Below, one piece after another: positions 20,263 to 41,510 of a DNA stretch of 64,000 nucleotides. Below the pieces are notes generated by a model. The model saw nothing but the letters and a program-made list of their open reading frames with translations, searched no databases and was not told where the DNA came from. Each line of letters opens with the position of its first letter. Position 1 is the stretch's first letter. The DNA is from Prostheceraeus crozeri. Taxonomy: Eukaryota > Platyhelminthes > Polycladida > Euryleptidae. Location: the NCBI GenBank assembly GCA_907163375.1, contig CAJQUW010011309.1, positions 124,001 to 188,000 of the forward strand. Reading direction: 5' to 3'. A program made the position numbers and the translations under genes.

Positions 20263-20299
20263 TAAGGCGCTGTCAGAGAAATTCATTCTCATTCCAACC

Positions 20300-22014: not shown

Positions 22015-22383
22015 ACAGCTCAATGTAACATGTGCGGATGTGATGTAAAACCCCAGAAACAAGGTGAAAAGAATGGGCCTACGACAAAGGTGCGAGATCA
22101 TGATCATATCACGGGCAAGTATCTGCAAACCCTGTGCAATGCATGTAACATGCGACGACGTCAATCCCGGACTACATTGAACATCTTGTTTCACAATTGG
22201 AAGGGATATGACAGTCACCAGGTGATTGTACAAGGGTTTACCAAGTTGGATCCCAAGTATAAGATCGAGCCCATTTATGTGTCAGGAGACAAGACGTTGG
22301 GAGTGACCATCTTTCTTCCCATGCCATCCAATACCCTATATAAACTCCGATTCATCGATTCGTGTCAGTTTTTGAAAGACTCT
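22015..22383 (+). pseudogene. Outer PolB, segment 3: endonuclease-VII-like knuckle and Exo II
   Basis: Continues in frame after the TAG. It contains CNMC, RDHDHITGKY and CNAC, a DHDH-plus-two-CxxC arrangement like phage recombination endonuclease VII zinc sites, also found at the same place in the inner polymerase. Then comes Exo II (FHNWKGYDSH). At 22383 the inner element begins, directly after a Ser codon and the GACTCT target copy. Exo III and the polymerase domain lie 19 kb further right. Confidence 0.85.
22378..22383. repeat. Left target-site duplication of the inner element (GACTCT)
   Basis: GACTCT directly before the AGTAATGG terminus; identical to 41505-41510. Six-base duplications are characteristic of Polintons. 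Confidence 0.95.
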
Positions 22384-23129
22384 AGTAATGGATAAAAGAC
22401 CGTTCCAGGACACCATAAAATCAAAAAAATTAGTACTTTTAAAAACGACATAAATTTATGAATTTAGTCCCTTTTTCAGGTTTTTAAGACCTAAATTCAT
22501 GAATTTAGTCTATTCAAAAAGTACCATTTTTTCAAAAAATGGTATTTTTAAAAACAACATAAATCGGAGCGAAGCTCCTCTGGCTTAAGCCGATTCATGA
22601 ATTTGAACCCTTTTTCAGGTTATGAAGACCTAAATTCATAAATTTGGGTGTTTTTAAAAATACCCAATTTTTCAAATTTTTTCAAAATCTCAAATTTGAG
22701 AATTACAATCGGGCGAAGCCCTAGAACCTTCGGTTCGATTTTCACCCCCAAAATCATGACCGTTCCAGGACACCGAAAATCATAAAAGTTAAGAATCTCA
22801 AAATTTGAGAATTACAATTTTCACCCCCGCTAAAATCATGACCGTTCTAGGACACTAAAAATTATAAAAGTTGAGTATCTCAAAATTTGAGAATAACAAT
22901 TTTCTCGCTTAAATCATGACCGTTCCAGGTCATGTAAAACCGGACACCGAAAATCATAAAAGTTGAGAATTTCAAATTCATGAATTTTATCCATCTTTCA
23001 GGTTTTTAAAATATATCATGTGACTAAAAATATTTCTTTAAAAATGGAAGGAACTCCAGAAATGGAAGAAACAAAAGTGGAAGGAACTTCAGAAATGGAA
23101 GGAACCTCAAGAATATATCCTTCGTTATC
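22384..23129. repeat. Left terminal inverted repeat of the inner element, 746 bp
   Basis: Reverse complement of 40759-41504. It holds several GACCGTTCCAGGACACC blocks followed by AT-rich palindromic stretches, two double-hairpin mini-repeats (22564-22593 and 22711-22737) and, at its inner edge, a truncated copy of the first codons of the membrane-protein gene. Confidence 0.93.
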
Positions 23130-23210
23130 TCAATTAAAAACAGGTGAAATGGTTCTCAATTATTATTAAGATTAGAGCACTATGATAAATTAAGAAGACG
23201 CAATTATTAC
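23020..23210 (+). pseudogene. Truncated 5' copy of the inner membrane-protein gene
   Basis: Bases 23020-23129 duplicate the start of the gene at 40104-40844 as part of the TIR. Beyond the TIR, 23150-23205 still resembles the codons for LLLRLEHYKKLRKR of that gene. The repeat was therefore once longer and has been eroded on this side. No full product is possible. Confidence 0.7.
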
Positions 23211-23998
23211 TTAGTCATTCTTCGTTATTGTATGCTCAACATTATTTAAAGTACTAATTGTGTGAACTAGAAGATCATTGTAACTCATAAACTCAAAATT
23301 ATTCAATGAACCCGTACACTGCCTGATAATTGAAGAGAGAGACAGAGATTGAAGAGAGAGAAACGTCTAGCAGCTTTCCCCTAAAATTATCATGCTATAT
23401 CTTGTCATTTCAATTTACCCATCGGTAAACTTTTGACATTTCAACTTACGCGTGCGTAAAGTTTTGACATTTCAATTTACCCCTACGTAAATTATTTTCA
23501 GAATCTGTTTTCAAAATCTATTTTCAAAATCCATTTGCAAAGTCTATTTTCAAATTCAGTTTTAGAAATCGATTTGCAAAATTCATTTAGCGTTTGCCAA
23601 ACACATACGGGTAGTAAAGTACTTCCCATTGTGAAGACATGAATAGATTAAGCACATAAGAGTGCATTGACAATAAAAGCAAATGACAATAAAATTCTTC
23701 TTCTAAATTTAGAACGCATAGACGGCGACATGCGGGATAGTTGTTATGGCAATTTTAAACAATCATTTTAACGATGAAACATATTTTACAAATGAAGTTC
23801 ATGAAGAAAATGGAAATATATAAAACAATATAGATTAGAATCGGCTAAAACCAGAGGAGCTTCGCTCCGATAATTATAATATAATCATTTCAAAATCGAA
23901 TAAGTAGTAAGGAAAGACATCATTAGAGAACAGTTTTAAATCAATACCCCCTCCCTTCTGTCTTCTAGGGGTCCCTTAAGAAATTTTTTTATTATAAA
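23211..23998. other. Non-coding region with short repeats, upstream of the protease
   Basis: Holds three copies of TTTTGACATTTCAATTTAC each followed by a GTAAA palindrome arm (23403-23490), then five or six TTTTCAAAATC-type words (23500-23585) and one double-hairpin mini-repeat (23840-23871). These may be regulatory or replication-associated. No gene seen. Confidence 0.55.
23840..23871. repeat. Double-hairpin mini-repeat, family B
   Basis: ATCGGCTAAAACC then GGAGCTTCGCTCCGAT; the second arm is a GGAGC-TTC-GCTCC hairpin. Intergenic copy. Confidence 0.7.
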
Positions 23999-24460
23999 AT
24001 GAGCAACATAAATGAGTTTTTTAAATTATATGGAACACAAACGACAACGAATTTCGACCTAAAGAAAATCGCAAATCAATTAGGAATAAAGAATTTTCAT
24101 GTTCTAATGAGAAACGAATTACAATTCCTAAAAAATAGGCCAACAGGAACCTTCAGTTCCCGGAACAAAGTTCCATCAATAATTGTAAATTTCATAACGA
24201 ATCTTCACACTTCAGACCAAAACGGCGTACATTGGTCAGCAGGTATCTTTAGTAAAAACGGAGATAATTATTATTTTGACTCATACGGGCTTCCACCTAC
24301 AAATGAAGTAAAAGAATTACTTGGAACGGGAACATACAATACGTTTCAAATTCAAAAACCGGGAACAACTTATTGTGGACAATTATGTCTTTATGTTTTA
24401 TTTAAATTACAAAAAGGAGTACCATTTCTAGATATTATGTTAGAGTTAAACAATCTATAA
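23999..24460 (+). CDS. Adenain-like cysteine protease (virion maturation protease), inner element
   Basis: 153 residues, with the catalytic His in GVHWSAGIF, the acidic residue in YYFDSYGLPP and the catalytic Cys in TYCGQLCLYVL, the order and spacing of adenovirus-type/Ulp1-like proteases of Polintons. It would process capsid and core precursors in the assembling particle. The start is the first ATG after an AT-rich leader. A paired-hairpin mini-repeat (24146-24175) lies in frame at residues about 50-59. It is the only plus-strand gene at this end, tail-to-tail with the integrase. Confidence 0.9.
   Translation: MSNINEFFKLYGTQTTTNFDLKKIANQLGIKNFHVLMRNELQFLKNRPTGTFSSRNKVPSIIVNFITNLHTSDQNGVHWSAGIFSKNGDNYYFDSYGLPPTNEVKELLGTGTYNTFQIQKPGTTYCGQLCLYVLFKLQKGVPFLDIMLELNNL
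24146..24175. repeat. Double-hairpin mini-repeat inside the protease gene
   Basis: GGAAC-CTTCA-GTTCC followed by GGAAC-AAA-GTTCC; in frame, adding about ten residues. Confidence 0.65.
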
Positions 24461-24494
24461 CTCAAGCGAAGCTAGCTAAAGCGCCACCTAGAGG

Positions 24495-25805
24495 TTAAAG
24501 CTCTGTTTTCTGTAATTCATTTTGATAAAAACGGCCTCTGATATTCTCATTATCTAAATCTTTAATTTCATAAGTAATCGGATAACTTTGATTTATTTTG
24601 CAAACTTCAAATATTTCTTTAGTCCAATAGCCAACAAAGCCTTTTTCAAATTTGTTCTTATATTTAAATATTCTAACTCTATCTCCAATTTTAAATTTCG
24701 GCTTAAGTTTCTGCAAATTCGGATTACTCTCATTCGAATAATTATTCTCGAATATTTTCTTTCGTATTAAATCAGGGTCGTCAGAAGCATTCTTTGGGGT
24801 TTCTTCAATACCTGAATGAACTTTATTATTGTACTGCTCTACAATTCCTGGTAATATTTTTAACCATTTCTGATTTCCTTGCTGAGTAAATTTCTTGAAA
24901 ATTTTATTTTTTAACGTCCGATTGAATCTTTCTATCACTATAGCTTTTCCTGCGTTTTCAGTTGAATAAACAGTTTCAAATAGTGGCTGAACGTTTCGGT
25001 TATAAAATTCCGACCCTTTATCAACAAACAATTTTTTTGGCTTTCTATTACTTTCTTTAAAGATTTCTTCAAACGCATATTTAACTGAAAGACCACTTTT
25101 ATTTTTTAAAGGCTTTACCCAAGCATATCGTGTATATAAATCTATAACTGTCAATGCGTATTTGTAGTCAGACTTTGTCTTAGAACCTTCGGTTCGGTCC
25201 CTTTCATTCGGCATATGAATAAGATCAGCACTCCAAATATCATCTTTATTAAATACTTTTACTTTTAATAAATATTTAGGCTTTCTATATTCTTTATGAA
25301 TTTCAGATGCATAAACGTCTGAATTATGATTTTCATTTAAACCCTGACCGAATAATATTTTAGCTTGTAAAGCTTTCTTAACAAACATTCTTTCAATTTT
25401 TTCTCTAAATGTAGGGTTTTGAATACTATCTAATTCTTTAATCATCTTCTTATCAGCTGCATGACGAGAACTTAGATCATGATTTCGATAAGCTAAATCA
25501 TGCCTGTAAGCGGCGGCATCTACTCTATTTATTGGTTCTTCACCTGGTTTCGGATTATTATTCTCATCTAGTCTTATATCTAATCGAGTTCCTGGACCAG
25601 TATATGAATGACCAGGAAGATGTTTTTCTTTCGAATATTTACTCCAAATAAAGCCAGGAAAGTTTTCTAATGTTTTTTGTATGTCACCTCCAATATGCTG
25701 ACAGTTTGAGTTTTTATTTTTGTTTAATAGATAATTTAATAAATCTAAATTAGCAATTTTTAATTTAATTAAATTTTCTGAATTTGTGGAATTTGCGGTA
25801 TCCAT
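24495..25805 (-). CDS. Phospholipase A2-integrase fusion, inner element
   Basis: 436 residues from the ATG at 25803-25805. Residues about 63-106 hold the parvovirus-type PLA2 signature: a calcium loop (YTGPGTRLD, about 68-76) and the catalytic HD pair in VDAAAYRHDLAY (about 102-103). From about residue 185 a retroviral-type integrase core follows, with Asp in DIWSADLIHM, Asp in LFVDKGSEFYN and Glu in VIERFNRT. It ends in an SH3-like tail without a chromodomain. Only about 29 residues separate the last two acidic residues, fewer than the usual 33-35. The integrase would insert the element; the PLA2 part, if active, would breach endosomal membranes during entry. A single frame encodes both. A mini-repeat at 25171-25200 interrupts the core in frame. 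Confidence 0.85.
   Translation of the reverse strand: MDTANSTNSENLIKLKIANLDLLNYLLNKNKNSNCQHIGGDIQKTLENFPGFIWSKYSKEKHLPGHSYTGPGTRLDIRLDENNNPKPGEEPINRVDAAAYRHDLAYRNHDLSSRHAADKKMIKELDSIQNPTFREKIERMFVKKALQAKILFGQGLNENHNSDVYASEIHKEYRKPKYLLKVKVFNKDDIWSADLIHMPNERDRTEGSKTKSDYKYALTVIDLYTRYAWVKPLKNKSGLSVKYAFEEIFKESNRKPKKLFVDKGSEFYNRNVQPLFETVYSTENAGKAIVIERFNRTLKNKIFKKFTQQGNQKWLKILPGIVEQYNNKVHSGIEETPKNASDDPDLIRKKIFENNYSNESNPNLQKLKPKFKIGDRVRIFKYKNKFEKGFVGYWTKEIFEVCKINQSYPITYEIKDLDNENIRGRFYQNELQKTEL
25171..25200. repeat. Double-hairpin mini-repeat inside the integrase core
   Basis: On the coding strand, GAACC-GAA-GGTTC, then TA, then GACTTTGTC-like arm; encodes the RTEGSKTKS stretch between the first catalytic Asp and the next strand. 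Confidence 0.7.
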
Positions 25806-25876
25806 TTTTAAAGATAAAAAACTTTTAAAAGATAAAATAAAAGTTTTACCGAAAAGAACCAAAGGTTCTGAGGTTA

Positions 25877-26359
25877 TTACCTTATCATACTAGGACTTAG
25901 ATATATTCCAGAACCATCTTTAGTTTCTTTAATTTCAATTAAATCATCAACATTGTGGAGAATATTTTTAAGAACTCGTTTTCCTTCATCAACTAATTTT
26001 AATTTACTAATAAAATTATCTACTATTCCTTCTCCTCTAGCAACTTTCTCTAACTCTCTATTATGACGTTTTTGTTCTTCTAATGCTGCCTTCTCTGATT
26101 TATTTTTATTTACTGCTTGGACAATACCAGCTGTCCCACCTGCAACACTTCCTGCAGCTGCTATGCCTCCTATTATTAGTGGAATTAATGGGAGAATACC
26201 GCCATTCTTTTCTTCTTGTAATTGAATATTCTCTATCATTGGTTTACTTATGTAATACTTTTTTTTGTTAATCGTAATAGTTTTACGGGTATTTTTGTCA
26301 ACAATATTACGTAATTTTAATTCAACAGTTTTATTATTATTACCTTTCGCTTGCGACAT
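25877..26359 (-). CDS. pX-like hydrophobic virion protein, inner element
   Basis: 160 residues. A basic N-terminus is followed by a GGILPLIPLIIGGIAAAG glycine/alanine-rich hydrophobic stretch (about 53-80), then a charged helix. The GGILP-x-L-x-PL pattern matches the outer element's 90-residue protein at 62187 and the hydrophobic tail of adenovirus core protein X as I recall that family. It sits between integrase and capsid gene on the same strand. The likely role is an internal, possibly membrane-active core component released by the protease. Function is inferred from this motif and position only. Confidence 0.65.
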   Translation of the reverse strand: MSQAKGNNNKTVELKLRNIVDKNTRKTITINKKKYYISKPMIENIQLQEEKNGGILPLIPLIIGGIAAAGSVAGGTAGIVQAVNKNKSEKAALEEQKRHNRELEKVARGEGIVDNFISKLKLVDEGKRVLKNILHNVDDLIEIKETKDGSGIYLSPSMIR

Positions 26360-26379
26360 TTTTAATAAAAAAATTTTAA

Positions 26380-26530
26380 GTTATCAAAAATTTAAATCTA
26401 TTCTAGTTACCAAAAAATTTTAAGTTACCAAAAATTTTAATCTATTCTAGTTATGAAAAAATTTTTAAGTTAAGAATTTTTAAGTTAACAAAAATTTTAA
26501 TCTATTCTAGTTATGAAAAATTAATTAATC
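26380..26530. repeat. Tandem repeat, about three copies of TTTTAATCTATTCTAGTTA
   Basis: Spacer between the pX-like gene and the capsid gene; each unit is about 50 bp with an AAGTTA-containing half. Confidence 0.75.
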
Positions 26531-26552
26531 GACTAAGTCTTGGGCTTTAACC

Positions 26553-26585
26553 TATCGGAGAGAAGCTCCTCTGGCTTTAGCCGAT
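26553..26585. repeat. Double-hairpin mini-repeat, family B, at the end of the capsid gene
   Basis: TATCGGAGAGAAGCTCCTCT then GGCTTTAGCCGAT; overlaps the last codons and stop of the capsid gene. Confidence 0.65.
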
Positions 26586-27551
26586 CCTAACCATCTTTCC
26601 ATTAAGAATTTCAATAGAATATTTTGCATCTTCTAGCAATAAACCATAAGCCATCAATGAAGTTGTGGAATCTTTCTTTTCAATATTAATTGTTACATCA
26701 CAACCATTTTTAATAATATCTTCAGATTGTGCACTTAAATCGAAACAGAAAATTGGATATAAATGTCTCCAATCTCCATGAGTTAATTGTGGTTCAACTC
26801 CAAATTCTATACAAAGATTTCTATAAGAATCATATCCTTCCATAAATTGATTATTGGTATCATCGAATCTTAATGGATCAATTGGATATCGAGTTTGATT
26901 TAATGAAACTTGTAAACTTCGAATTGTATTAATATGGAAGATATTATTGTTCTTATCAAAACTTGGAGAATTATTTCTTTGAAATGTTAGTAATAAATAT
27001 CTTGGAGTATTCGCAGTTCTAGTAAAATGCCAGTTAAATCTTTGTTCGGAAAAAGTTACTGAACTAGCAGTTCTCTTTAGAAAATTAACTGGAATTGGTT
27101 TGTTAGTATTTAATCTTTTTGCAATAGCTGTTTCAACCTCTAAACTAGGAGTAATATGCTTAATCCACCATTCAAGTCTATCAATTTTTAAATATGCTTT
27201 TTTCCCAGTCTTACCAAAAAAGATTAATTCATTATTTGCTGTACGATGAATTATTAATTTAAATTTTAATTGATATGATATTTTATCATAATCTAAATAA
27301 CCGAATAATGGAGACAATGACCAATTTACTGTCTGTTTACTTTTTTTGTTAAATTCACGTCTTTCTTTATATGCTTCATTATTTGTTTTATTTAAATGTT
27401 TTGCAATATTTTCTACATCTTTCGCAATTCCTGCGGCATCTGTTCCAGCGTGAGTTAAATCATCAATAATTATACCATCATTAGTATCAGGAAACCAACC
27501 TTCGATTTCATGCTTTTTATTATTTTCACCAATTGTTATAAATCTAAGCAT
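26577..27551 (-). pseudogene. Major capsid protein, inner element, C-terminal part
   Basis: 324 residues that continue the protein begun at 27910 in a different frame. Contains LLRFITIGE-type text next to an acidic IEGWFPDTNDG, long beta-rich blocks and a C-terminal PIFCFDLSAQ region, the arrangement of Polinton/adintovirus hexon-like double jelly-roll capsid proteins. The frame changes between 27551 and 27575, so the full-length protein (about 440 residues) is not encoded continuously. Confidence 0.75.
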
Positions 27552-27559
27552 TGTATCAA

Positions 27560-27910
27560 TTACACCTGGGAATCACTTATTGTTTCTATATTTTGAGTTG
27601 CAACATCTAAACGCATTTGTGTAAATAAACTTGGGAAAAAATTATTCTCTAGTGTAATATTATCGGTATCTGGTAATGGTGTTGTAAAATTAGCATCACT
27701 ATATAAAGAATATTCACAGTGTAAAAATGAATCAGGTAAATATAAATAACTCTGCTGATTATCAACTTCAAAGATTAAATCTCCTCCAGTGTTTACTCTA
27801 CTGGAAGATCCGGGATTCATAGCAATTCTTATATAGTCATTCTTTTTTTGATTGTAACTGGTGAACGGAGGATCATCTAATCTAAATTTATTTTCGATAA
27901 GCGAAGACAT
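27560..27910 (-). pseudogene. Major capsid protein, inner element, N-terminal part
   Basis: 116 residues starting at the ATG at 27908-27910. The first jelly-roll begins here (FEVDNQQSYLYLPDSFLHCE, then NNFFPSLFTQMRLDV). It ends in a stop one frame away from the continuation at 27551, a single-base shift in a CCC/AGG context. If the shift is real, no intact capsid is made from this copy. Confidence 0.75.
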
Positions 27911-27957
27911 TTTTATAAGAAATAATTTGACTTTTTGTTTTTCTCACAGATAGAAAA

Positions 27958-28085
27958 AAAATTTTTATTAAATATAATTTTAGAATTTTACTAAATATAA
28001 TTTTAGAATTTTACTAAATATAATTTTAGAATTTTACTAAATATAATTTTAGAATTTTACTAAATATAATTTTAGAATTTTGCTA
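27958..28085. repeat. Tandem repeat, 23-bp unit, about five copies
   Basis: AAATATAATTTTAGAATTTTACT repeated between the capsid gene and the alanine-rich protein; the last copy overlaps the latter's stop codon. Confidence 0.88.
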
Positions 28086-28593
28086 GACCAGCTCCGCTAC
28101 AGCTTTGCTGGTTAGACAGAAGGTTGCTGCTCACGCCATTACCTCTTATTTCTTCAATTGTTTTTTCATTTTGTTTGCTATTACCCTCTACAGCTATGTT
28201 AGCAATTTTGTTTTTTGTTTCATCTGAAAGTTTTTTTAATTTTTTTAGTTCTTCAGAATCATTCTTGAGTTTACGAATAGCTTCTAGTTGTTTTAATTCG
28301 TTTTGTGATTTAACAGCATTTGATATTGCACTAGCTGTACTACCTATAGCAGCTGCTCCTTTTGCAGCAGATGTAATCAAATCTTTATTACTTTTAATTA
28401 AGTTAACGATACTACCAATACCAGAAAAGATGCCATCCCCTTCTTTTTGGACGGCACCTGCGGTGCCTAGGAACTTTTGTGTTCCGACAGTTTCTACACT
28501 ATCATAATGGTACACAGGTTTCTGAGATGGTTCATGAGCAATTTTATTATTTGATGCAAAATGTTTAAGATTGTGTTTATAAATTATAGGCAT
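28072..28593 (-). CDS. Alanine-rich minor virion protein, inner element
   Basis: 173 residues. A central GIFSGIGSIVNLIKS helix and an alanine-rich AAKGAAAIGSTASAIS stretch (about 78-105) are followed by a charged coiled-coil segment and a glycine/serine tail. Composition and position next to the capsid gene suggest an internal minor protein, perhaps of the pVI type; this is inference. A double-hairpin repeat (28453-28483) lies in frame at residues about 37-47. Confidence 0.55.
   Translation of the reverse strand: MPIIYKHNLKHFASNNKIAHEPSQKPVYHYDSVETVGTQKFLGTAGAVQKEGDGIFSGIGSIVNLIKSNKDLITSAAKGAAAIGSTASAISNAVKSQNELKQLEAIRKLKNDSEELKKLKKLSDETKNKIANIAVEGNSKQNEKTIEEIRGNGVSSNLLSNQQSCSGAGLAKF
28453..28483. 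repeat. Double-hairpin mini-repeat inside the alanine-rich protein gene
   Basis: GGCAC-CTGCG-GTGCC, TA, GGAAC-TTTT-GTTCC: same two-hairpin layout with different stem sequence. Confidence 0.65.
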
Positions 28594-28636
28594 TTTTTAG
28601 GATTAAATTTGACTTTTGGTAAAAAATATTTACGTG

Positions 28637-28981
28637 TTAAGATTTACGTTTGTGAATGGACAACAACTTCGAGATAACTTTATTAATTGACTGTTGCACT
28701 TTATCTATTGCGTCAAGCAGCGTGTGATGTACTTTAATTTCTTTTCTATTAACTTGCATTTTCACCTGATTCATCTTCAACGCCGTTTTAAGAGCATTTA
28801 ACTTAATTTTAAGAACATCTAATTGTCTTTTAACAGCATCTAACTGTTCTTTATTTTCTTTAGAGTTTTCTTGTAAATTTTTCTTTAATTCATTTTCTAA
28901 ATTGATTTTAAGAGTTTTCATTTTATCAACTTTTTCATTAAGTGAGTTTACTTCATTTATTATTCTATTCATCTTTTTCAT
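28637..28981 (-). pseudogene. Coiled-coil continuation of the fibre-like protein, inner element
   Basis: About 115 residues, almost entirely heptad-like (LNEKVDKMKTLKINLENEL), with a basic end. The first ATG in frame is at 28979-28981, but the same frame is open further upstream past the stop of the neighbouring fibre gene at 29010. An A9 run at about 29047-29056 is the likely site of a frameshift, so this is probably the C-terminal half of one longer coiled-coil protein. Confidence 0.55.
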
Positions 28982-29009
28982 TTGTTGAGTAATTTTAGAA
29001 CTCAATTCA

Positions 29010-29525
29010 TCAACACTTTTTTGGAATGTAGTTTGTAACTGCTTTAAATTTTTTTTTAATTCTTTCAGGAAGTTTTTCTATTTCATCTTCTAATTGTTCT
29101 TCTAACATTTTGATCTGATGTTTATTTTTAATGACTGCAGATTTTAAATTTAAAGAAAGTAATATTAAAATTTTTGATTGTTCTGAAATCTTTTTAAAAA
29201 GTTTTGCTATATCTGCTTCTAGCTCTCTATCCTTTTTATCAAGTTTTAATAATTTTTCGTTTAATGATTTGTCATTAAGTTTAAGCAACTTCAATTCATT
29301 CATCAGTGGAACCATAACATCGTTTATATATTTTTCCTTTAAGTCATTGATTTGTGTATCAACATATTGTTTATTTGTTAACTCTGTATTTTGTTGCGGA
29401 AGAATAGAAAGATGCAATGGACCAGATAAAACGTCTCCAGTTTTCATAATATAATTTTCTATCTCTATTTCTAATTCACGATTATTCGGGATATATGCAC
29501 CTCCACCAACATTTGGTAACATCAT
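29010..29525 (-). CDS. Fibre-like coiled-coil protein with phage tail-fibre motif, inner element
   Basis: 171 residues. Residues about 24-60 read YIMKTGDVLSGPLHL followed by TNKQYVDTQI, the 'MKTGD-x-x-SGPL ... NKxYVD' signature common in phage tail-fibre shafts. After it come about 100 residues of coiled coil. A trimeric attachment or surface fibre is a reasonable inference. The frame ends at 29010 next to a homopolymer, and coiled coil resumes in another frame (28637-28981). Confidence 0.65.
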   Translation of the reverse strand: MMLPNVGGGAYIPNNRELEIEIENYIMKTGDVLSGPLHLSILPQQNTELTNKQYVDTQINDLKEKYINDVMVPLMNELKLLKLNDKSLNEKLLKLDKKDRELEADIAKLFKKISEQSKILILLSLNLKSAVIKNKHQIKMLEEQLEDEIEKLPERIKKKFKAVTNYIPKKC

Positions 29526-29568
29526 TTTTTAACAATAAAAAAATAAATTTTTTCTAATAAAAATAAAA

Positions 29569-29907: not shown

Positions 29908-29939
29908 ATCCAAATAATCCCCTTACTCAAAATAATAAT

Positions 29940-32380: not shown

Positions 32381-32398
32381 ACAAATTTATCATAATCA

Positions 32399-32427: not shown

Positions 32428-32560
32428 CACGATTTTGCAGATATATTAGAATTTTTCCATTATATATATTTAGAATTTTTTTCTCTAAAAAATTAAAACA
32501 AAAATTTTTTTTTTAAAAAAAAAAACTAAAACACAAATTTTTTCTTTAAAAAATAAAAAA

Positions 32561-35500
32561 ATGAAAACATTTTATTGTGTCTTATGTGAAAAAAAATTGC
32601 AAACAAAAAGAAGTTATCAATCTCATCTACAAAGTAAAATGCATTTACAAAATGTAGAACGAGTTGATGAAGGAAATATATTAAAATTAAATAGTTATAA
32701 AAATTATCTAGAAACATTGCCTACTGATATAAAAGTTAAAAAAATGTTTGATGATTATTCACATTCGGAATATAAAAAATTTTTTAATAGTGAAGATGAA
32801 GCCGTAACAGATATAAAATATTTATTTAGCGATACTGATGAATTTAACGAAATAGATGAATTTGATGAAGCCGTACGAACCGAAGGTTCTAGGGCTTCGC
32901 CCGAAACAGATATAAAATATTTATTTAATCAGTCTTTTGAATATAATGAAACCGATAAAACTTTTTCTGATATTCTAACCAACTTTTATAATATATTTAA
33001 GAAATCTTTCAAATGTTATATGAATGTAGAAGTACTTTATACAAAAAATGGACCTGATGGAATTCCTGAAGAAATAATACAAGGACATTTTACAAATTCG
33101 CAAGAAATTCATAATGTAAATGATATACAACCCATATTTGAATCGATGATACTTAAATTAGAAAATTGTATAATTGAAGCCCAGTTACGTGAATCTGGTT
33201 GGAGATTTGTTAAAATAATATCTAAGAAAATAGTAATTGATAAATATAAAAATAATACTGGTGGTAGTTATGTTCCTTTACCTTTCAGTTCACCTCAATT
33301 AATCAACATAAAAAATGAAGATGATTATTGTTTTCTGTGGAGTATTATAGCACATTTACATCCTGCAAAATATCATAAAGAAAGACTAAGTCATTACAAT
33401 AAAGAAGAATACATAAATGAATTTGATCTCTCTGATGGCTTAGATGAATTTCCATATGATTATAATAGGTTACTAAAGTTTCATAAAAAGAATAAAAATT
33501 TAATTGAAGTAAATGTTTTTGAATTAAATGTGAATTATGTTTCTATTGGTAAAATTACTCCACTTTACCCAGATTCAAAAAAATTTTATTTGAATAATAA
33601 AAATTTTTGCCAATCAGAAATAGTATATAATGATAGAGGAAATTACATGCATCATAATATTTTTTACCAAGGAAATATAATATGTACTGAAAAATTTGAA
33701 CTTGTTAAAACACTATCACCAATAATGATTAATCATAATAATTATAAAGGACGTACTGATGATTATAATTACAAATATTCATCTTTATCTTCAGAATACC
33801 AACAAAAATTAGAAAATTTAAATGAAAGTTTACAAAAATGTAAAATAGATTATCAACAACAAACAAAAATGTTACTACAAGAATATCACCATAAATATCA
33901 AAATAAGATAGAAACAATTCAAAAATTAAATGAAGAAAATAATAAAGAATCGGCTAAAGCCAGAGGAGCTTCGCTCCGATTAAATAATGAAGAAAATGAA
34001 ACCAAACAAAAAATAAATGAATCTTTAAAAAAATGTCTACAACAATATAAAGAACAATATGATAAAGAATATAGTTATCAGTTACAAATATTAAATCAAA
34101 ATTATTATCAAAATACATTTAATCTTACAAAAGAAATTAATGAAACACATGAAATATATAAAGATGAATTTGTAAAATTAGAACAGTTAAAACAACCAGC
34201 ACAAGCGAATATATTATATTATCAGGGTCATTTTATATTGTGTAAAGATGTTTCTATATTTACAAAAACTTCAGATAATAAAAATTTTCCTTGTCTTCAA
34301 TGTATGACAAGTTTTAGAACTTTAGAAGAAATGAATAGACATTTGGAAAATTGTCAACAAAATGAAGCAGTTCAAAATACTTTTCCAAAAGATGATTATT
34401 TAGAATATAATAAATGGTATTTTAAAAATAAAGTACCCTTTACTATTTATTGTGATTTTGAAGCATATAATGTTAATATGACACAAAATCAAACGGAAAG
34501 TTCCAGGGCTTCACCCGATTCTGAAAATTATAATTCTGAAAATTATAATTCTGAAAAAAGTGCGCCTGGAAAAAGTGCGCCTGGAAAAAGTTCAGCTGAA
34601 CAAAGTAAAGAAAAATATTTATTTGAACAAAAACCATTATGTTGGGGAATGTACATTCATTCGAATTATCCTGAATTATTTAAATCAGAATATTTACAAT
34701 ACTATGGTGAAGACAGTTCAGAAATGTTTACAAAGAAAGTAGAAGAATTACAAGGACGTTTTTCACAATTGCTTGAAACAAATAAACCAATGATACCATT
34801 AACGGATGAAGAAAGAAAAGAATTTTATGATGAAATAAATTGTTATTACTGTGGAAAAGGTTTTACAAATAAATATAAAACTGGCAGAGGTAGATATATT
34901 GATAAAGTAAAAGATCATGATCATCTAAATGGATTATATAGAGGTGCAGCACATAATTCTTGTAATCTTAATGCTAACAAATTTAAATATAACTTTGTTC
35001 CTCTATATTTCTACAATGGTTCTAAATATGATTTCCATCTAGTAATGAAAGACTTATTTTCATCTGAAAAATTACAACAACAAAAAATAAATGTACTATG
35101 TAAACAAGAAGAAGAATATTTTTCAATGCAATTAGGCTGCATTAGAATTTTAGATGCATTTAGATTTTTAACTCCTTATCCACTAGATGATAAGGGAAAA
35201 ACTTTGAAATCTGAACAATGTAAAATATTAAATAAATATAATTTAAAACCTTTAAAAGGAATATTTCCGTATGAGTACATAACTGGAGATTTTAATTCTG
35301 TGAATAAAATTATGGAAGAAGAACAACTTCCCCCAATAAATAAATTTAAATCAACATTAAAACAATCACAATTATCTGAAGAAGATTATGCAGAAGCTGA
35401 AAAAAATTGGAGAGAGTTAAATTGTAAAACAATGTATGATTATACAATGAAATATCTACAGATAGATGTATTAATACTAGCTGATCTTTTTGAAAACTTT

Positions 35501-37093
35501 CGTGATATGTGTTTAGAATATTACGGAATAGATCCATGTTATTGTTATTCTACACCAGGTTTAACATGGCTAGCAGGATTAAAACATACTGGTGTTCAAG
35601 CCGATGGCTCTAGGACAAAGTCCGTTAAACTTAAACATTATAAAGAAAATACATATGATAAATTATTATTTTTTGAATCTGGAATTAGAGGTGGAGTTTC
35701 ATCAGTTTTAGGTAATAGATATGTTAAATGTTATAATAAGAAAGTAAATCCACAAGAATATGGAATAATGAAACCTTTATCTCCAGAAGAAAAAGAAAAA
35801 ATATTAGAAATTTTTCGAACGAAACGAGAAGGAGTAGAACGTGAAAAAGCAATTGATGAATTCATGAGAGAAAACTATTTATTATATTATGATTTTAATA
35901 GCTTATATTCTTCTTGCATGATACAAGAATTACCAACAGGTGAAATGACATGGTGTAATAATCTTGTTTATCAAAGAACATATGATGGTGAAAATAATTT
36001 TGGTTATGTATATGAAGTTGATTTAGTATATCCTGATTATATAAAAGAAGCAACAAAATATTATCCTTTCTGTCCAGAAAACAAAATTCCCAATATAGAA
36101 GATTTTTCAGATTATCAAAAATCTATAATTCCGAAAAAATACAGACCAACAAAAAAACTTATGTTAACACAAGGTAATAAAGGAAAGTATGTTGTTGAAG
36201 GAAGAATGCTAGATTGGTATTTAAATCATGGCATGATTCTCACCAAAATACATCGAAAACTAGAGTATAGAAAATCTAAATGGTTAAAAAATTATATAGA
36301 GTTCAATATTGAAAAACGTAAAATAGCTAAAAGAAATAAAGATGATTTTGGAAACGTTTTCTTCAAATTAATGAATAATGCATTTTATGGTAAGACTTTA
36401 GAAAATGTGCGTAATAGACAAAATATTGAAATAGTTTATGATAGAGATAGATTTCAAAATTTAACAAGGAAACCTACATATAAAAGAACTACTAGATTCA
36501 GTGATGAACTTTGTGCTGTTCATCTAAGAAGAAGCATTGTAAAACATGATAAGTTTAATTTCATTGGTTTCACTATATTAGAATTAGCTAAACTATTTAT
36601 GTATAGTTTTATATATGATTATTTAGCACCTGCTTATGGCAAAAACTATAAATTACACTTTACAGATACCGATTCTATTTTCTTAGAATTAACAGTACCA
36701 TATGGTTCTTCACTTGATAAAGAAATTAATAAAATAAAAGATATTATTCATCCTTCTGATTTATGTAAAGTAAAAGATGAATTAGAAGGAAATGAAGATT
36801 TCATAACAGAAGCTATATTTTTAAAATCTAAATGTTACTGTTATGATACAACTAATAATATTAAAACACATAAAACATTAAAAGGAATTTCAAAGGCATC
36901 AGTGGCTAATCAAATAACATTTCAAGATTATAAAAATGCATTATTTAATAATGAAATAAAAACGGCATGTAATTATAGACTTAATTCAAAAAAACATAAA
37001 ATGTATTTAAAAGAAGAACATAAATTAGCATTAGATCCATTTGATGATAAAAGAAAAATTTTACCTGATGGAATAACTACTTTACCTTTTTAA
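32561..37093 (+). CDS. Protein-primed-type family B DNA polymerase, inner element
   Basis: 1510 residues, unbroken. N-terminal C2H2 finger (CVLCEKKLQTKRSYQSHLQS). A Cys/His region follows (DDYCFLWSIIAHLHP, about residue 260), then a long coiled coil (about 405-560) and a second finger (CLQCMTSFRTLEEMNRHLENC). Exo I is YCDFEAYN (about 630). Next comes an endonuclease-VII-like knuckle (CYYC, KDHDHLNGLYRG, SCN, about 785). Exo II is YNGSKYDFH (about 819), Exo III LQIDVLILADLF (about 966), motif A YDFNSLYSSC (about 1110), motif B NNAFYGKT (about 1272) and motif C FTDTDSIF (about 1367). All catalytic residues are present. It replicates the element, presumably from a terminal protein. Four mini-repeats lie in frame between conserved blocks and enlarge it. 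Confidence 0.96.
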   Translation: MKTFYCVLCEKKLQTKRSYQSHLQSKMHLQNVERVDEGNILKLNSYKNYLETLPTDIKVKKMFDDYSHSEYKKFFNSEDEAVTDIKYLFSDTDEFNEIDEFDEAVRTEGSRASPETDIKYLFNQSFEYNETDKTFSDILTNFYNIFKKSFKCYMNVEVLYTKNGPDGIPEEIIQGHFTNSQEIHNVNDIQPIFESMILKLENCIIEAQLRESGWRFVKIISKKIVIDKYKNNTGGSYVPLPFSSPQLINIKNEDDYCFLWSIIAHLHPAKYHKERLSHYNKEEYINEFDLSDGLDEFPYDYNRLLKFHKKNKNLIEVNVFELNVNYVSIGKITPLYPDSKKFYLNNKNFCQSEIVYNDRGNYMHHNIFYQGNIICTEKFELVKTLSPIMINHNNYKGRTDDYNYKYSSLSSEYQQKLENLNESLQKCKIDYQQQTKMLLQEYHHKYQNKIETIQKLNEENNKESAKARGASLRLNNEENETKQKINESLKKCLQQYKEQYDKEYSYQLQILNQNYYQNTFNLTKEINETHEIYKDEFVKLEQLKQPAQANILYYQGHFILCKDVSIFTKTSDNKNFPCLQCMTSFRTLEEMNRHLENCQQNEAVQNTFPKDDYLEYNKWYFKNKVPFTIYCDFEAYNVNMTQNQTESSRASPDSENYNSENYNSEKSAPGKSAPGKSSAEQSKEKYLFEQKPLCWGMYIHSNYPELFKSEYLQYYGEDSSEMFTKKVEELQGRFSQLLETNKPMIPLTDEERKEFYDEINCYYCGKGFTNKYKTGRGRYIDKVKDHDHLNGLYRGAAHNSCNLNANKFKYNFVPLYFYNGSKYDFHLVMKDLFSSEKLQQQKINVLCKQEEEYFSMQLGCIRILDAFRFLTPYPLDDKGKTLKSEQCKILNKYNLKPLKGIFPYEYITGDFNSVNKIMEEEQLPPINKFKSTLKQSQLSEEDYAEAEKNWRELNCKTMYDYTMKYLQIDVLILADLFENFRDMCLEYYGIDPCYCYSTPGLTWLAGLKHTGVQADGSRTKSVKLKHYKENTYDKLLFFESGIRGGVSSVLGNRYVKCYNKKVNPQEYGIMKPLSPEEKEKILEIFRTKREGVEREKAIDEFMRENYLLYYDFNSLYSSCMIQELPTGEMTWCNNLVYQRTYDGENNFGYVYEVDLVYPDYIKEATKYYPFCPENKIPNIEDFSDYQKSIIPKKYRPTKKLMLTQGNKGKYVVEGRMLDWYLNHGMILTKIHRKLEYRKSKWLKNYIEFNIEKRKIAKRNKDDFGNVFFKLMNNAFYGKTLENVRNRQNIEIVYDRDRFQNLTRKPTYKRTTRFSDELCAVHLRRSIVKHDKFNFIGFTILELAKLFMYSFIYDYLAPAYGKNYKLHFTDTDSIFLELTVPYGSSLDKEINKIKDIIHPSDLCKVKDELEGNEDFITEAIFLKSKCYCYDTTNNIKTHKTLKGISKASVANQITFQDYKNALFNNEIKTACNYRLNSKKHKMYLKEEHKLALDPFDDKRKILPDGITTLPF
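32877..32903. repeat. Double-hairpin mini-repeat, family A, inside PolB
   Basis: GAACC-GAA-GGTTC, TA, GGGC-TTC-GCCC; encodes RTEGSRASP in the polymerase N-terminal region. Confidence 0.85.
33949..33980. repeat. Double-hairpin mini-repeat, family B, inside PolB
   Basis: ATCGGCTAAAGCC then GGAGC-TTC-GCTCC; encodes SAKARGASLRL in the coiled coil. Confidence 0.85.
34493..34520. repeat. Double-hairpin mini-repeat, family A (diverged), inside PolB
   Basis: GGAAAGTTCC then GGGC-TTC-ACCC; encodes ESSRASP just after Exo I. Confidence 0.7.
35600..35626. repeat. Double-hairpin mini-repeat (diverged), inside PolB
   Basis: GCCGATGGC, TCTA, GGAC-AAA-GTCC; encodes ADGSRTKSV between Exo III and motif A. 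Confidence 0.65.
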
Positions 37094-37170
37094 TTTTCTA
37101 ATTTCTATTTTCTAAGTATAACAATATAACAATATAAAAATATAAAATATTATAAAATTATCATATAAAA

Positions 37171-37986
37171 ATGGATAAAGTTAGAGCTGATAATTTTAAA
37201 AGAATAAAACAATTAGAAGAGTTAATAAAACAAAGAAATATTATGAAAGAAAATCATCTTCAACATAGAATGACAAAAGCTGGTATTCAATCTGATATGT
37301 TTGATCAATTAAAATTAACTGAAGAAGTAAAAACTGATTATGAAAAAACTGTCGAACCATTGAAAACTCTTGAAAAAGAACTTAATGAAAAACGTGTTGA
37401 TATAGCGGATCCTGTACTTAAAACACTATTAGATGACTATGGTTTATTAGAGGCAAACATAGATAAAAAATTACCAAAATCTATGTTATTCGAACATTCT
37501 ACTTTCCTTTTAGATAAAAAATTATTTGCAAGATTTTATCTTGGTGGTAAAGAAATATTTCCACAACCTTTACGAGGATTAATTTTTACTCCAGATAAAA
37601 AACCTATTAGTTTAGATAGAAATTTTGTTGATCTTTTAAGAGGAGCAGATTTAAAAAATTATGCTGTAGAAGATCTAATAAAATATAAAACTATATTAGA
37701 TAGAGTTGGCACAGTAAAAACTCTTAGACGTTATAAACAATTAGAAAATTTATTATCAACGGGAGTTAAAGTAGGGAAAGGTTTATCTGAAAAACAGAAA
37801 ACAGAAACAACCATATTTTTACCAGATGATCCACAAGAATTACTAAATAGATTAAATATTTTAATATCTGCAATAAAAGAAGGGCATAATTCTAGTTTCA
37901 ATGAAATTCATGCTATATTGAAAAGAATGTTAGAAAAAAAGATTCTAAATGAAGAGGATTATAAAAGTGTAACCGGACATCTCTGA
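37171..37986 (+). CDS. Orphan helical protein, inner element
   Basis: 271 residues, highly charged. The N-terminal third is coiled coil (RIKQLEELIKQRNIMKEN), followed by a more globular middle (FARFYLGGKEIFPQPLRGL) and a helical C-terminus. No family recognised. It lies between PolB and the penton-like gene on the same strand with short AT-rich spacers, so co-expression is likely. The last codons and the stop lie inside a mini-repeat (37975-38007), so its natural C-terminus may have been altered by that insertion. Confidence 0.6.
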   Translation: MDKVRADNFKRIKQLEELIKQRNIMKENHLQHRMTKAGIQSDMFDQLKLTEEVKTDYEKTVEPLKTLEKELNEKRVDIADPVLKTLLDDYGLLEANIDKKLPKSMLFEHSTFLLDKKLFARFYLGGKEIFPQPLRGLIFTPDKKPISLDRNFVDLLRGADLKNYAVEDLIKYKTILDRVGTVKTLRRYKQLENLLSTGVKVGKGLSEKQKTETTIFLPDDPQELLNRLNILISAIKEGHNSSFNEIHAILKRMLEKKILNEEDYKSVTGHL

Positions 37987-38044
37987 TGTCCTCCAGGGCT
38001 TCGCCCGAACCGGACATCTCTGATGTCCTCTAGGGCTTCGCCCG
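37975..38044. repeat. Two tandem double-hairpin mini-repeats at the orphan gene's stop
   Basis: Each is GGACATC-TCT-GATGTCC, TCTA or TCCA, GGGC-TTC-GCCC. The first supplies the final codons and the TGA of the preceding gene. Confidence 0.8.
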
Positions 38045-38123
38045 TAGCTGAAATATGTTGTTTCTAATTTTTTATAAAAAAATATTTCATAAAAAAATAT
38101 TTATTTAATTTTTTAGTTTAAAA

Positions 38124-38912
38124 ATGTGTTCAGCAGATTTAGACAAAATTAATAATCATTTACAAAATTTAACAGAGATTTTGGGTTCATCAAAATTTAG
38201 TACGACGTTAAAAATTATAACAACTACTTCATCACACACTTGTAATTTAGAACCCATTCTACATTTGGAACAAAATAAAAATTATCAAATTGCATTGACT
38301 AGTTTCTCTACATTTAACACTATTCAAAACGTTATCAAAGATGTGAATGATCAATTTAGATATTCTACTGATAAAGGCAAAACATGGAAAATATTAACTT
38401 TTCTTCCTGGTTCTTACGAAGTTGAAACAATATCAAATGAAATTAAGAGACATTTAGGTATACCATTTAAAGATAAGAAACAATTACATTTTGCAGTTGA
38501 ACCGGCAGTTAATAAATTTTCTCTTACTTTAGACGAAAATCATCAAGTTGATTTTAATCATGATAGATCATTGTCAAAGCTATTAGGATTTAATAAACAA
38601 ACTTACAGTCAAGGTTATCATTTAGGTGAGAAGATTCCAAAAATAACTGAAATAAATTCAATTGTTGTACATTGTGACATTATTGAAGGAGGATATATAA
38701 ATGGTAAATTATCAAATTTAATATTCAGTTTTCCAGCTTTTACTGTACCCATTGGTTATAGATTAAATGTATTTCCACAAACATTAATATATTTTCCTAT
38801 TACAAGAAAAACTATTAACAACATTGGCATTAGAATCACTGATGAAAAAGGACAAGAAATAAATTTTGGAGGTGAAGAGATTATGATAGATCTTTTGGTA
38901 CGGGAGGTATAA
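38124..38912 (+). CDS. Penton-like minor capsid protein, inner element
   Basis: 262 residues. It shows FLPGSYEVETISNEIKRHLG (the 'P-G-x-Y-x-x-E-x-x-x-x-I' module also seen three times in the outer spike), SKLLGF, an IVVHCDIIEGGYINGK block and a C-terminal INFGGEEIMIDLLVRE ending. This layout corresponds to the single jelly-roll vertex protein of Polintons and adintoviruses, and the outer element's 305- and 234-residue proteins share it (LLYCNIV, then a terminal DDG and LHLRR). It would sit at the fivefold vertices of the capsid. Confidence 0.75.
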   Translation: MCSADLDKINNHLQNLTEILGSSKFSTTLKIITTTSSHTCNLEPILHLEQNKNYQIALTSFSTFNTIQNVIKDVNDQFRYSTDKGKTWKILTFLPGSYEVETISNEIKRHLGIPFKDKKQLHFAVEPAVNKFSLTLDENHQVDFNHDRSLSKLLGFNKQTYSQGYHLGEKIPKITEINSIVVHCDIIEGGYINGKLSNLIFSFPAFTVPIGYRLNVFPQTLIYFPITRKTINNIGIRITDEKGQEINFGGEEIMIDLLVREV

Positions 38913-39084
38913 ACTCCCGTTCGAGAGGTATAAACTTTTACGCTACAATAGAAAAGTTTAATTTTTTTTATCATTTTCATTATTAATCTTATTAATCTTA
39001 TTAATCTTATTATTAGAAACAAAAAATAAACTTAAATTAAAATTTTATTTTTATTTTTTTGTTTCTAAAAACACTAATTCAATA

Positions 39085-39873
39085 ATGGATGAATTTATTA
39101 CTTTAAAAATGAATGAAATGTCTTTAAATAAAAAAAAACTTAAATTTAATCATCATCCAAATTTATCTAATAAAGTTTTAGCAGTTATTTGCGGAAGATC
39201 AGGATGTGGAAAAACATATCTATTATTTAAAATTTTAACGACTCCAAATTTTTTGGATTATAACAATCTTATAATTTATACAACAACGGCAGAACAACCC
39301 GTCTATCAATTTTTAAAATATGGATTTGAAAATAATCTTACAAAAACAGCAATTGCTTCTCTATTCGAAGAATACGAAAAATCTGAATATGAAGAAGAAA
39401 TAAATTTGTGGTGTGAAGAAGCAGCAAAAAATAAACAATTAGTTGAATCCAATAAAAATAAGCATATAAAAATACAATTAATAGATGATAGTGGTAATAT
39501 GCAAGATCCTAGTAAACTAGATAAAACAATGAAACATTGTGTAATTTTTGATGATTGTGTTAATGACAGAAATCAGTCAGTTCAAAGAAATTATTTCACA
39601 AGAGGTAGACATAATAACTGTAGTGTATTTTATTTGACACAAAGTATGTATTCATTAGATGGAAGTGTTATTAGAAAGAATGCAAATATATTTATACTAT
39701 TTGAAATAAATGCAAGAAACTTAAGTGATTTGTTAAGAGATTTATGTATAAGAGATAAAGATGAATTTAAACAATCGTGTAATAATGCTTGGTCAAAAGA
39801 TTATGGATTTATCACAATTAATATTGATAAAAAAATTCATGAAAGAGTTATCGAAGATTTGTTTACTGAGTAA
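39085..39873 (+). CDS. P-loop packaging ATPase 2 (A32-like), inner element
   Basis: 262 residues. Walker A is AVICGRSGCGKTYLL, Walker B is HCVIFDDCVND, and the motif following it is YFTRGRHNNCSVFYLTQSMY, where the Gln-containing sensor after the GRHNN loop is typical of FtsK/HerA-clade viral genome-packaging ATPases. It has a better fit to the standard Polinton ATPase than ATPase 1 and lies next to the penton-like gene. It probably pumps DNA into the procapsid. Confidence 0.88.
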   Translation: MDEFITLKMNEMSLNKKKLKFNHHPNLSNKVLAVICGRSGCGKTYLLFKILTTPNFLDYNNLIIYTTTAEQPVYQFLKYGFENNLTKTAIASLFEEYEKSEYEEEINLWCEEAAKNKQLVESNKNKHIKIQLIDDSGNMQDPSKLDKTMKHCVIFDDCVNDRNQSVQRNYFTRGRHNNCSVFYLTQSMYSLDGSVIRKNANIFILFEINARNLSDLLRDLCIRDKDEFKQSCNNAWSKDYGFITINIDKKIHERVIEDLFTE

Positions 39874-40034
39874 TAAAAAATATACAACATAGTGGTATAA
39901 TATTTTTTTGTTATTATCAGCTTTAATTTTATCTATTTTTTAAAATATAATATTTGAATTTTGTGGTAACATTGGAATACAGCAAAAACATTTTACTGAA
40001 CAAATAATTTTTTTATTGCTTTGTTGTTTGTAAT

Positions 40035-40105
40035 CTTTTCGTTTAAAGTTTTCTCGTTTAAAGTTTTCTCGTTTAAAGTTTTCTCGTTTAAAGTTTTCTC
40101 GTATT
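40035..40105. repeat. Tandem repeat TTTTCTCGTTTAAAG, four to five copies
   Basis: 15-bp units just downstream of the membrane-protein stop on its strand. Confidence 0.85.
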
Positions 40106-40844
40106 AAGTTTTGTTTAATAAAGTTTTGTCTAATAAAGTTTTTAGCTCTTCTAAAAAAATTTTGTCATTTTCTTCATTAGAAATTTTATCATCACTAAAA
40201 GTTTTACCATCACTAGAAATTTTACCATCCTTTTTATTTTTATCATCAACTTTTTCTGTCTGTGATTGAAATGATATTTGATTTACTTCATTAGCTATTT
40301 GATCAAATTTTTCAATCTCATCTAACGTAATAACATTATCATCACATACTCTTTGAAAGTAGTAATGTAGTTTATCATAGACTTCTTTAATATGTAAATG
40401 CTTAGTTTTTAATGATTTTCGTTTCTTTGATATTAAAGATTTATCTAACATTGTAACAAGTGAAGTTGCAAAAACACCCGTACCTGTTAAAGCTGTAGCA
40501 ACTACTGGAATTACTAAAACACCTGAAGATATAACAATTGTTAAAGCACCTAAACTTATTGTTAAGAATATGCCAATTCCTTGTGTTACATTCTTAACTT
40601 TACTCCATCTCTTTCTTAATTTTTTATAATGCTCTAATCTTAATAATAATTGAGATTCCTTATCTTTCATATACCTTACTCTATCTTTGTGTTTTTCTTT
40701 ATTCATTTTTTCAATGTTAATCTTTTCAATGTCCATTAAAGTAGAACTACGTTCATATGATAACGAAGGATATATTCTTGAGGTTCCTTCCATTTCTGAA
40801 GTTCCTTCCACTTTTGTTTCTTCCATTTCTGGAGTTCCTTCCAT
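40104..40844 (-). CDS. Two-pass membrane protein straddling the right TIR, inner element
   Basis: About 246 residues from the ATG at 40842-40844. The N-terminus repeats EMEGTS/VEGT words. A central pair of hydrophobic segments (GIFLTISLGALTIVISSGVL and VIPVVATALTGTGVFATSLV) is followed by a basic turn and a helical, acidic tail. The first 28 or so codons lie in the TIR, so the left TIR carries a truncated duplicate. No family recognised; a membrane-associated role, in egress or fusion or as a host interactor, is only a guess. Confidence 0.6.
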   Translation of the reverse strand: MEGTPEMEETKVEGTSEMEGTSRIYPSLSYERSSTLMDIEKINIEKMNKEKHKDRVRYMKDKESQLLLRLEHYKKLRKRWSKVKNVTQGIGIFLTISLGALTIVISSGVLVIPVVATALTGTGVFATSLVTMLDKSLISKKRKSLKTKHLHIKEVYDKLHYYFQRVCDDNVITLDEIEKFDQIANEVNQISFQSQTEKVDDKNKKDGKISSDGKTFSDDKISNEENDKIFLEELKTLLDKTLLNKT

Positions 40845-41504
40845 TTTTAAAGAAATATTTTTAGTCACATGATATATTTTAAAAACCTGAAAGATGGATA
40901 AAATTCATGAATTTGAAATTCTCAACTTTTATGATTTTCGGTGTCCGGTTTTACATGACCTGGAACGGTCATGATTTAAGCGAGAAAATTGTTATTCTCA
41001 AATTTTGAGATACTCAACTTTTATAATTTTTAGTGTCCTAGAACGGTCATGATTTTAGCGGGGGTGAAAATTGTAATTCTCAAATTTTGAGATTCTTAAC
41101 TTTTATGATTTTCGGTGTCCTGGAACGGTCATGATTTTGGGGGTGAAAATCGAACCGAAGGTTCTAGGGCTTCGCCCGATTGTAATTCTCAAATTTGAGA
41201 TTTTGAAAAAATTTGAAAAATTGGGTATTTTTAAAAACACCCAAATTTATGAATTTAGGTCTTCATAACCTGAAAAAGGGTTCAAATTCATGAATCGGCT
41301 TAAGCCAGAGGAGCTTCGCTCCGATTTATGTTGTTTTTAAAAATACCATTTTTTGAAAAAATGGTACTTTTTGAATAGACTAAATTCATGAATTTAGGTC
41401 TTAAAAACCTGAAAAAGGGACTAAATTCATAAATTTATGTCGTTTTTAAAAGTACTAATTTTTTTGATTTTATGGTGTCCTGGAACGGTCTTTTATCCAT
41501 TACT
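40759..41504. repeat. Right terminal inverted repeat of the inner element, 746 bp
   Basis: Mirror of 22384-23129. The first part of the membrane-protein gene (40104-40844) lies inside it. Mini-repeats occur at 41151-41178 and 41294-41325. The GGTGTCCTGGAACGGTC block is repeated with small changes near 41470, 41120, 41030 and 40950. Confidence 0.93.
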
Positions 41505-41510
41505 GACTCT
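41505..41510. repeat. Right target-site duplication of the inner element (GACTCT)
   Basis: GACTCT directly after the CCATTACT terminus; pairs with 22378-22383. Confidence 0.95.

Follow-up and report, generated by a model that had tools for sequence, protein, structure and literature searches.

Members of the Polinton/Maverick family carry a PolB, an rve integrase, a double jelly-roll (DJR) capsid protein and an A32-type ATPase. In PMC8097293 they are described as bounded by terminal inverted repeats (TIRs) and 6-bp target duplications (TSDs). Adintoviruses, according to PMC11071296, combine PolB and an rve integrase with adenovirus-like virion genes, and a chromodomain is stated there for the integrase. 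Nested insertions into virus-like elements have also been described. Ngaro retrotransposons are nested in endogenous virophages of Cafeteria, with one of 20 analysable sites lying in pPolB, and some Ngaro types clearly prefer virophage as a target (PMC8547959). The cryptophyte polinton-like viruses (PLVs) carry nested retrotransposons that are able to disrupt coding genes (PMC12220804).

The stretch analysed here (the window, 64,000 nucleotides of Prostheceraeus crozeri DNA) contains one Polinton within another. The likeness to the Polintons of PMC8097293 lies in the TIRs and 6-bp TSDs, and the inner element also has the PolB, rve integrase, DJR capsid protein and A32-type ATPase of the family. 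The locus differs from the family in that a PLA2-like domain is joined to the inner integrase, in which no chromodomain was detected, and in that the outer element has TBP-like and RING genes. PolB, rve integrase and adenovirus-like virion genes are shared with the adintoviruses, but the chromodomain stated in PMC11071296 was found in the outer integrase and not in the inner one. As in the Cafeteria nests, a mobile element lies within an integrated virus-like element; those of PMC8547959 are, however, retrotransposons, whereas here a Polinton lies in a Polinton and a target preference is unsupported. Nested insertion is likewise common to this locus and the cryptophyte PLVs, where PMC12220804 describes a retrotransposon in a protist PLV. 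The nest provides a cleanly bracketed, datable virus-like element within another, for which the same genome supplies hundreds of empty sites to serve as controls.

Boundaries of the two elements

The inner Polinton-type element occupies 22384-41504 on the forward strand (19,121 bp), as defined by its ends, TIRs and TSD and by same-end relatives throughout the genome. Its termini are AGTAATGG / CCATTACT. The left TIR (22384-23129, forward) and the right TIR (40759-41504, reverse) are each 746 bp long and, when aligned to each other, are identical at 746 of 746 positions, with divergence beyond. The TSD, GACTCT, is present at 22378-22383 and again at 41505-41510. Both the two-sided GACTCT and the 746-bp inverted repeats had been noticed in the sequence-only reading and were verified; the nest reported there as 22378-41510 is real, but that span includes both copies of GACTCT. 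Among three further pairs of inner-type ends, matching TSDs were found in two (GTTTCA and AAGATT), and the third pair was unmatched.

The outer element, also on the forward strand, extends from 20032 to 64456, its last part lying past the window end (64000) in L070 (L070:456). The first 261 positions of its two ends match at 260. Its TSD, CAGATG, is found at 20026-20031 and, in L070, directly after window coordinate 64456. The TSD and the near-identical TIRs indicate that the two outer halves are parts of a single copy, which measures approximately 25.3 kb once the inner element and one copy of GACTCT are subtracted. To its left are LINE reverse transcriptase fragments (19188-19968, reverse; RVT_1, 1.7e-11 and 8.7e-4). 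LINE-like frames resume, by eye, to the right, where two frames gave no Pfam family. Scans of the window for tRNAs and for Rfam families at gathering score found nothing.

Gene content

In the inner element, TIRs and a 6-bp TSD are accompanied by a PolB with DNA_pol_B_2, an rve integrase and a DJR capsid protein, which places it among the Polintons/Mavericks. The PolB, of the protein-primed type, is an open frame of 1510 aa (32561-37093, forward; DNA_pol_B_2, 5e-17). No relatives of it were found in viral_contigs, where 11 stretches fitted the pattern and none was confirmed, and there was no match in phages. The integrase (24495-25862, reverse) is the fusion mentioned above (PLA2-like, PF08398, 2.5e-9; rve, PF00665, 2.1e-8), and both domains are present in most of the best 120 of its 1257 relatives. 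At E values up to 0.01 it showed no Chromo match, so that the C-terminal chromodomain of adintoviruses was not found. Two A32-like ATPases are encoded on the forward strand, a packaging ATPase at 31235-32380 (Pox_A32, 5.3e-11) and a second at 39085-39873 (Pox_A32, 2.9e-6).

The inner major capsid protein gene (26577-27943, reverse; DJR-like_dom, 8.2e-19 on 26577-27551) is frame-broken near 27.56 kb; of two other copies, one is a single open frame throughout the portion read, whereas the other is broken elsewhere. The description of the inner Polinton as complete therefore holds for its ends and most of its gene set, but not for this gene. Further candidates are a core protein (pX-like; 25877-26359, reverse), with a weak Adeno_PX match below the cut-off (E 0.0079), and a penton-like protein (38124-38912, forward), which gave no Pfam family over the cut-off and weakly resembles the outer frame at 48642-49349 (E 6e-4 for a single comparison). 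The frame at 23999-24460 (forward), picked by eye from a motif, is a candidate adenain-like protease; it gave no Pfam family, and its PDB sequence matches were to unrelated lectins only (best E 0.0054). The protease and the capsid part gave only short PDB sequence matches to unrelated proteins, the best being ribosomal eL39 (E 3e-4).

The outer element is likewise a Polinton/Maverick, as it has the TIRs (260/261) and 6-bp TSD together with PolB and an rve integrase. The latter (52498-53751, reverse; rve, 1.3e-11) ends in a C-terminal chromodomain (Chromo, 7.1e-8). Also present are a TBP-like gene (43366-43944, forward; PF00352, 4.9e-11; 17 relatives), a RING-finger gene (43847-44428, forward; zf-C3HC4_3, 2.7e-11), a putative ATPase (53773-54966, reverse; AAA_14, 7.1e-4, below the cut-off) and a split adenain-like protease (44545-45511, reverse; Peptidase_C5, E 0.017 on 45086-45511, below the cut-off). 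The frame at 45751-46998 (reverse) is a major capsid candidate by eye and position; it gave no Pfam family over the cut-off and no BLASTP similarity to the inner capsid pieces, and its single-sequence fold was unusable (mean pLDDT 30).

The insertion site

The outer PolB is found in two parts, N-terminal (20243-22383) and C-terminal (41505-43616; DNA_pol_B_2, 2.1e-21 on 41472-43616), both on the forward strand. The C-terminal part has 2221 relatives among 7988 candidates scored (best identity, 47%) and none in viral_contigs; nothing closely related to the outer PolB turned up in eight fetched PolB loci, whose only two weak matches were to the inner PolB. Each copy of GACTCT abuts a codon boundary, the frame running to 22383 and resuming at 41505. 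By hand count, the site falls between NWKGYD (22195-22212) and YLTVD (41787-41801), which we take to be the Exo II-like and Exo III-like motifs. A frame stopping and resuming on a codon boundary between these motifs had been proposed in the sequence-only reading, and this is correct at the junction; the frame is, however, already interrupted upstream by a stop (22012-22014) and a frame change (approximately 20.76 kb). That the insertion is codon-exact is uninformative, since a third of all insertions that duplicate 6 bp will fall on a codon boundary.

Empty copies of the outer PolB were sought in the same genome. In all 29 of the other outer copies fetched, GACTCT is single and the sequence continues across the site, the right-flank match being approximately 1.5 kb in 27 of them, approximately 0.8 kb in L046 and 278 bases in L063. 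Exact string counts in the genome gave 245 occurrences of the empty site (reversed control, 0) and one of the occupied junction (control, 0). It is apparent from these counts that, at the level of the assembled sequence, the nest is a real insertion. Misassembly of two loci deserves consideration, as each family is repeated in many copies and the assembly comprises 14,165 contigs of moderate length for 2.05 Gb. However, GACTCT and CAGATG are matched duplications independent of each other, and the locus agrees exactly with all 29 empty sites; misassembly is therefore very unlikely, indeed close to negligible, and was rejected. The nesting of a Polinton in the PolB of a different Polinton, as originally proposed, was thus borne out by the TSD, the TIRs and the empty sites.

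Order and age of the insertions

The anatomy, both duplication pairs, the hundreds of empty sites and the single occupied site were observed directly. Very probably, the inner Polinton integrated at GACTCT in the PolB of a Polinton of a different family that was then chromosomal, duplicating 6 bp. The insertion would have been carried out by the inner element's own retrovirus-type integrase, the outer element would already have been in the chromosome when the inner one arrived, and the landing place would have been random.

The suggestion that the insertion was recent is supported by the identity of the inner TIRs. Judged by the private divergence of the outer copy (12 of 3590 sites), approximately five differences would be expected between them and none was found (P ~0.007); the TIRs compared alone (1/261 outer, 0/746 inner) give P ~0.06. 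On these substitution counts, the inner TIRs look younger than the private divergence of the outer copy. If one TIR had been converted by the other, the inner copy would appear too young, and part of the private changes may precede the integration of the outer copy.

An unlikely alternative course is that the outer genome was replicating outside the chromosome when, within one cell, the inner element inserted into it, and that the composite then entered the chromosome. Equal ages would fit the TIRs, as the single difference among 1007 positions would fall in the 261-bp outer TIR with a probability of ~0.26. The private substitutions, with the reservation just given, suggest instead that the outer copy is older; the composite would also have been 44 kb long, and its exact junction string is found once in the genome, so there is no sign of its having multiplied.

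The claim that a competitor knocked out the outer PolB is unsupported, because the outer copy has other damage that is private to it. None of 29 other copies has the in-frame PolB stop at 22012-22014, and all 29 also differ at the frame break near 20.76 kb. A templated insertion (44794-45131) interrupts the protease gene, which is intact at this point in the five of five other copies read there. The filler matches 43959-44195 and 45595-45681.

Abundance and choice of target

The 2.05-Gb genome contains 6,662 inner-type ends (control, 0), or roughly 3,300 elements and about 3% of the genome. Among the first 100 ends listed, 31 pairs were found, 28 of them with ends 16-21 kb apart, and 38 ends were unpaired. 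With thousands of elements present, such a nest is to be expected; random landing predicts ~10 inner-type insertions in the outer family. Given the share of the genome that inner-type elements make up, the landing in the outer PolB was likely fortuitous. The abundance of this one Polinton end type in a 2-Gb genome may outweigh the nest in interest, and provides enough insertions for a census of whether Polintons avoid, tolerate or prefer one another as targets.

Four nested cases were found: that in the window, one in the PolB of another family (L016; one junction only), one in a PolB of the inner element's own type (C133; TSD, GAAGAT) and one in a TBP-like Polinton gene (L029). The three in PolB thus involve three different Polinton families, one being the inner element's own. 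It seems distinctly improbable that Polintons of the inner type single out the replication gene of other Polintons, perhaps during extrachromosomal replication, as interference between virus-like elements. Very improbable, too, is a preference for Polinton DNA, and PolB above all, as target: three of four nested cases in PolB is slightly above the random-landing prediction, but when the flanks of 24 other elements were examined, two proved to be within Polinton genes, and nesting of paired elements in their own type (1 of 31) matches the 0.9 expected. Moreover, it was the insertion in PolB that led to the choice of the window, and without it the count is two of three (P ~0.1 if the PolB share is taken as 0.2). 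Four nested cases being too few, PolB targeting was dropped as a claim.

A second end-subtype, of which the first 100 of 473 places were inspected by eye, yielded no new nest of the subtype beyond C133. Its list includes a few long spans, for example 33 kb on C1294.

Evidence for the nested insertion

It is apparent that the window, located at G000:C9380:124001-188000 in the 2.05-Gb genome, contains a Polinton inside the PolB gene of another Polinton, as proposed from the sequence-only reading. The inner element (22384-41504) has the termini AGTAATGG/CCATTACT, is flanked on either side by GACTCT, and has TIRs that align without a single difference (746/746 positions identical). The 6-bp duplication of Polintons is supported by PMC8097293, in the part available.

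Outer copies lacking the inner element, which had been suggested as a check, were sought using as query the 900-base sequence that adjoins the junction on its left side. All 40 candidates scored, from a total of 368, carried this left flank at ≥97% identity. Thirty loci, the window included, were cut out from this search, and in all 29 others a single GACTCT was present, with the sequence continuous across it. The right-flank match beyond GACTCT extended for approximately 1.5 kb in 27 of these copies, approximately 0.8 kb in locus L046 and 278 bases in locus L063. Across the genome, 245 exact copies of the empty-site string are present, some of them perhaps on duplicate contigs covering a single locus, as compared with one exact copy of the occupied-junction string. 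Misassembly was considered as a source of this arrangement, and is very unlikely, given the two matched duplications. The nested insertion is genuine and well bracketed.

Retrotransposons nested in virophages (PMC8547959) and in polinton-like viruses (PMC12220804) are described in the parts of those papers available, whereas the insert in the window is itself a Polinton. No Polinton-in-Polinton case was found in the available parts of PMC8097293, PMC8547959 and PMC12220804, and the word 'nested' is absent from that of PMC6431247; this partial coverage of the literature is, of course, no proof that such a case is unpublished.

Age of the insertion and state of the outer copy

The outer copy shows 12 substitutions in 3590 PolB sites relative to its nearest subfamily (seven copies for the left PolB piece and six for the right, from which L046 and L063 were dropped). 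At that rate, approximately five differences would be expected between the inner TIRs, as compared with the zero seen (P ~0.007). The same test using the 10 sites private against all aligned copies gave P 0.016, and a comparison of inner and outer ages by TIRs alone gave P ~0.06. With fewer differences than expected, the inner insertion is probably younger than the outer copy. The identity of the TIRs likewise favours the suggestion that the insertion was recent; TIR conversion could mimic such a low age.

The outer copy is damaged in several ways. Its PolB contains a stop at the codon of 22012 that is absent from all 29 other copies, and a frame break near 20.76 kb, where all 29 differ from it. 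Several other copies, e.g. L043, L045 and L046, have small private gaps elsewhere in the same PolB stretch, so that signs of decay or sequencing error are not confined to the window copy. The outer protease gene, unbroken in 5/5 other copies read there, is interrupted at 44794-45131 by filler (a templated insertion) matching two stretches of the same outer element, 43959-44195 and 45595-45681. With these lesions present besides the insertion, the loss of the outer copy cannot be attributed to the inner element, and the proposal that the outer replication gene was 'knocked out by a competitor' goes beyond the evidence.

Abundance and other nested copies

Inner-type ends, all of one Polinton end type, numbered 6662 (3207 + 3455), as compared with none in a reversed control. 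The first 100 listed gave 31 pairs, 28 of them spanning 16-21 kb, and 38 unpaired ends. Halving the ends and multiplying by the median length yields roughly 3,300 elements, or ~3% of the genome, a figure that truncated copies inflate and variant ends deflate. Adding the window copy to the 245 empty strings gives a minimum of 246 members for the outer family, which, taken at 25.3 kb apiece, amount to ~0.3% of the genome. By arithmetic, random landing would place approximately 10 inner-type insertions in the outer family, one or two of them in its PolB, and a single nest of this kind is therefore unsurprising. A genome crowded with such elements is the setting of the nested insertion.

Twenty-eight other inner-type ends on 24 contigs, counted as 24 elements, were fetched with approximately 1.5 kb of one-sided flank each; the flank queries were proteins of the window only, which more distant Polintons would escape. 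In L016, an inner-type element is located within the PolB of a different Polinton family (28-40% identical to the outer pieces), with one junction only, the contig ending there. In L029, the element lies in a TBP-like gene homologous to that of the outer element (31% identity). On contig C133, an inner-type element flanked on both sides by GAAGAT resides inside the PolB of another inner-type element; the two PolB flanks at this site agree with the inner PolB of the window at 86% and 96% of bases. Inner-type fragments were found at most 1.5 kb away in L031 and L020. Three of the four nested cases, the window among them, are in PolB, at differing points of the gene. Since PolB makes up about one-fifth of a Polinton and the window was selected for its PolB insertion, a PolB preference is suggestive at most. 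At G000:C3:98245-137209, inner-type ends are separated by 39 kb, roughly double the typical length, and may mark another interrupted copy.

Gene content and surroundings

The inner element encodes PolB, two A32-like ATPases, a fusion of an rve integrase with a PLA2-like domain (24495-25862), frequent among the relatives listed for it, and a double jelly-roll capsid protein. The capsid gene consists of two reading frames joining near 27.56 kb; of two other inner-type copies read, one shows a single uninterrupted frame throughout the stretch covered and the other is broken elsewhere.

The outer element, which is flanked on either side by CAGATG, spans 20032-64456, its right end 456 bases beyond the window; its TIRs are identical at 260 of 261 positions. 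Directly downstream of its PolB are a TBP-like gene (43366-43944), with 17 relatives by protein search, and an adjoining RING-finger gene (43847-44428). It also encodes an rve integrase with a chromodomain. By eye, similar zinc-finger-like frames are situated near both ends (20243-20776 and 63244-63876), and the proteins of 47700-48626 and 49249-52497 have an N-terminal stretch in common; the former contains a collagen-like repeat, below the cut-off. LINE reverse-transcriptase fragments lie to the left of the outer element and LINE-like frames resume, by eye, to its right, where Pfam assigned no family to the two frames searched. A Tc1/mariner-type transposase frame was identified by Pfam at 7100-8050.
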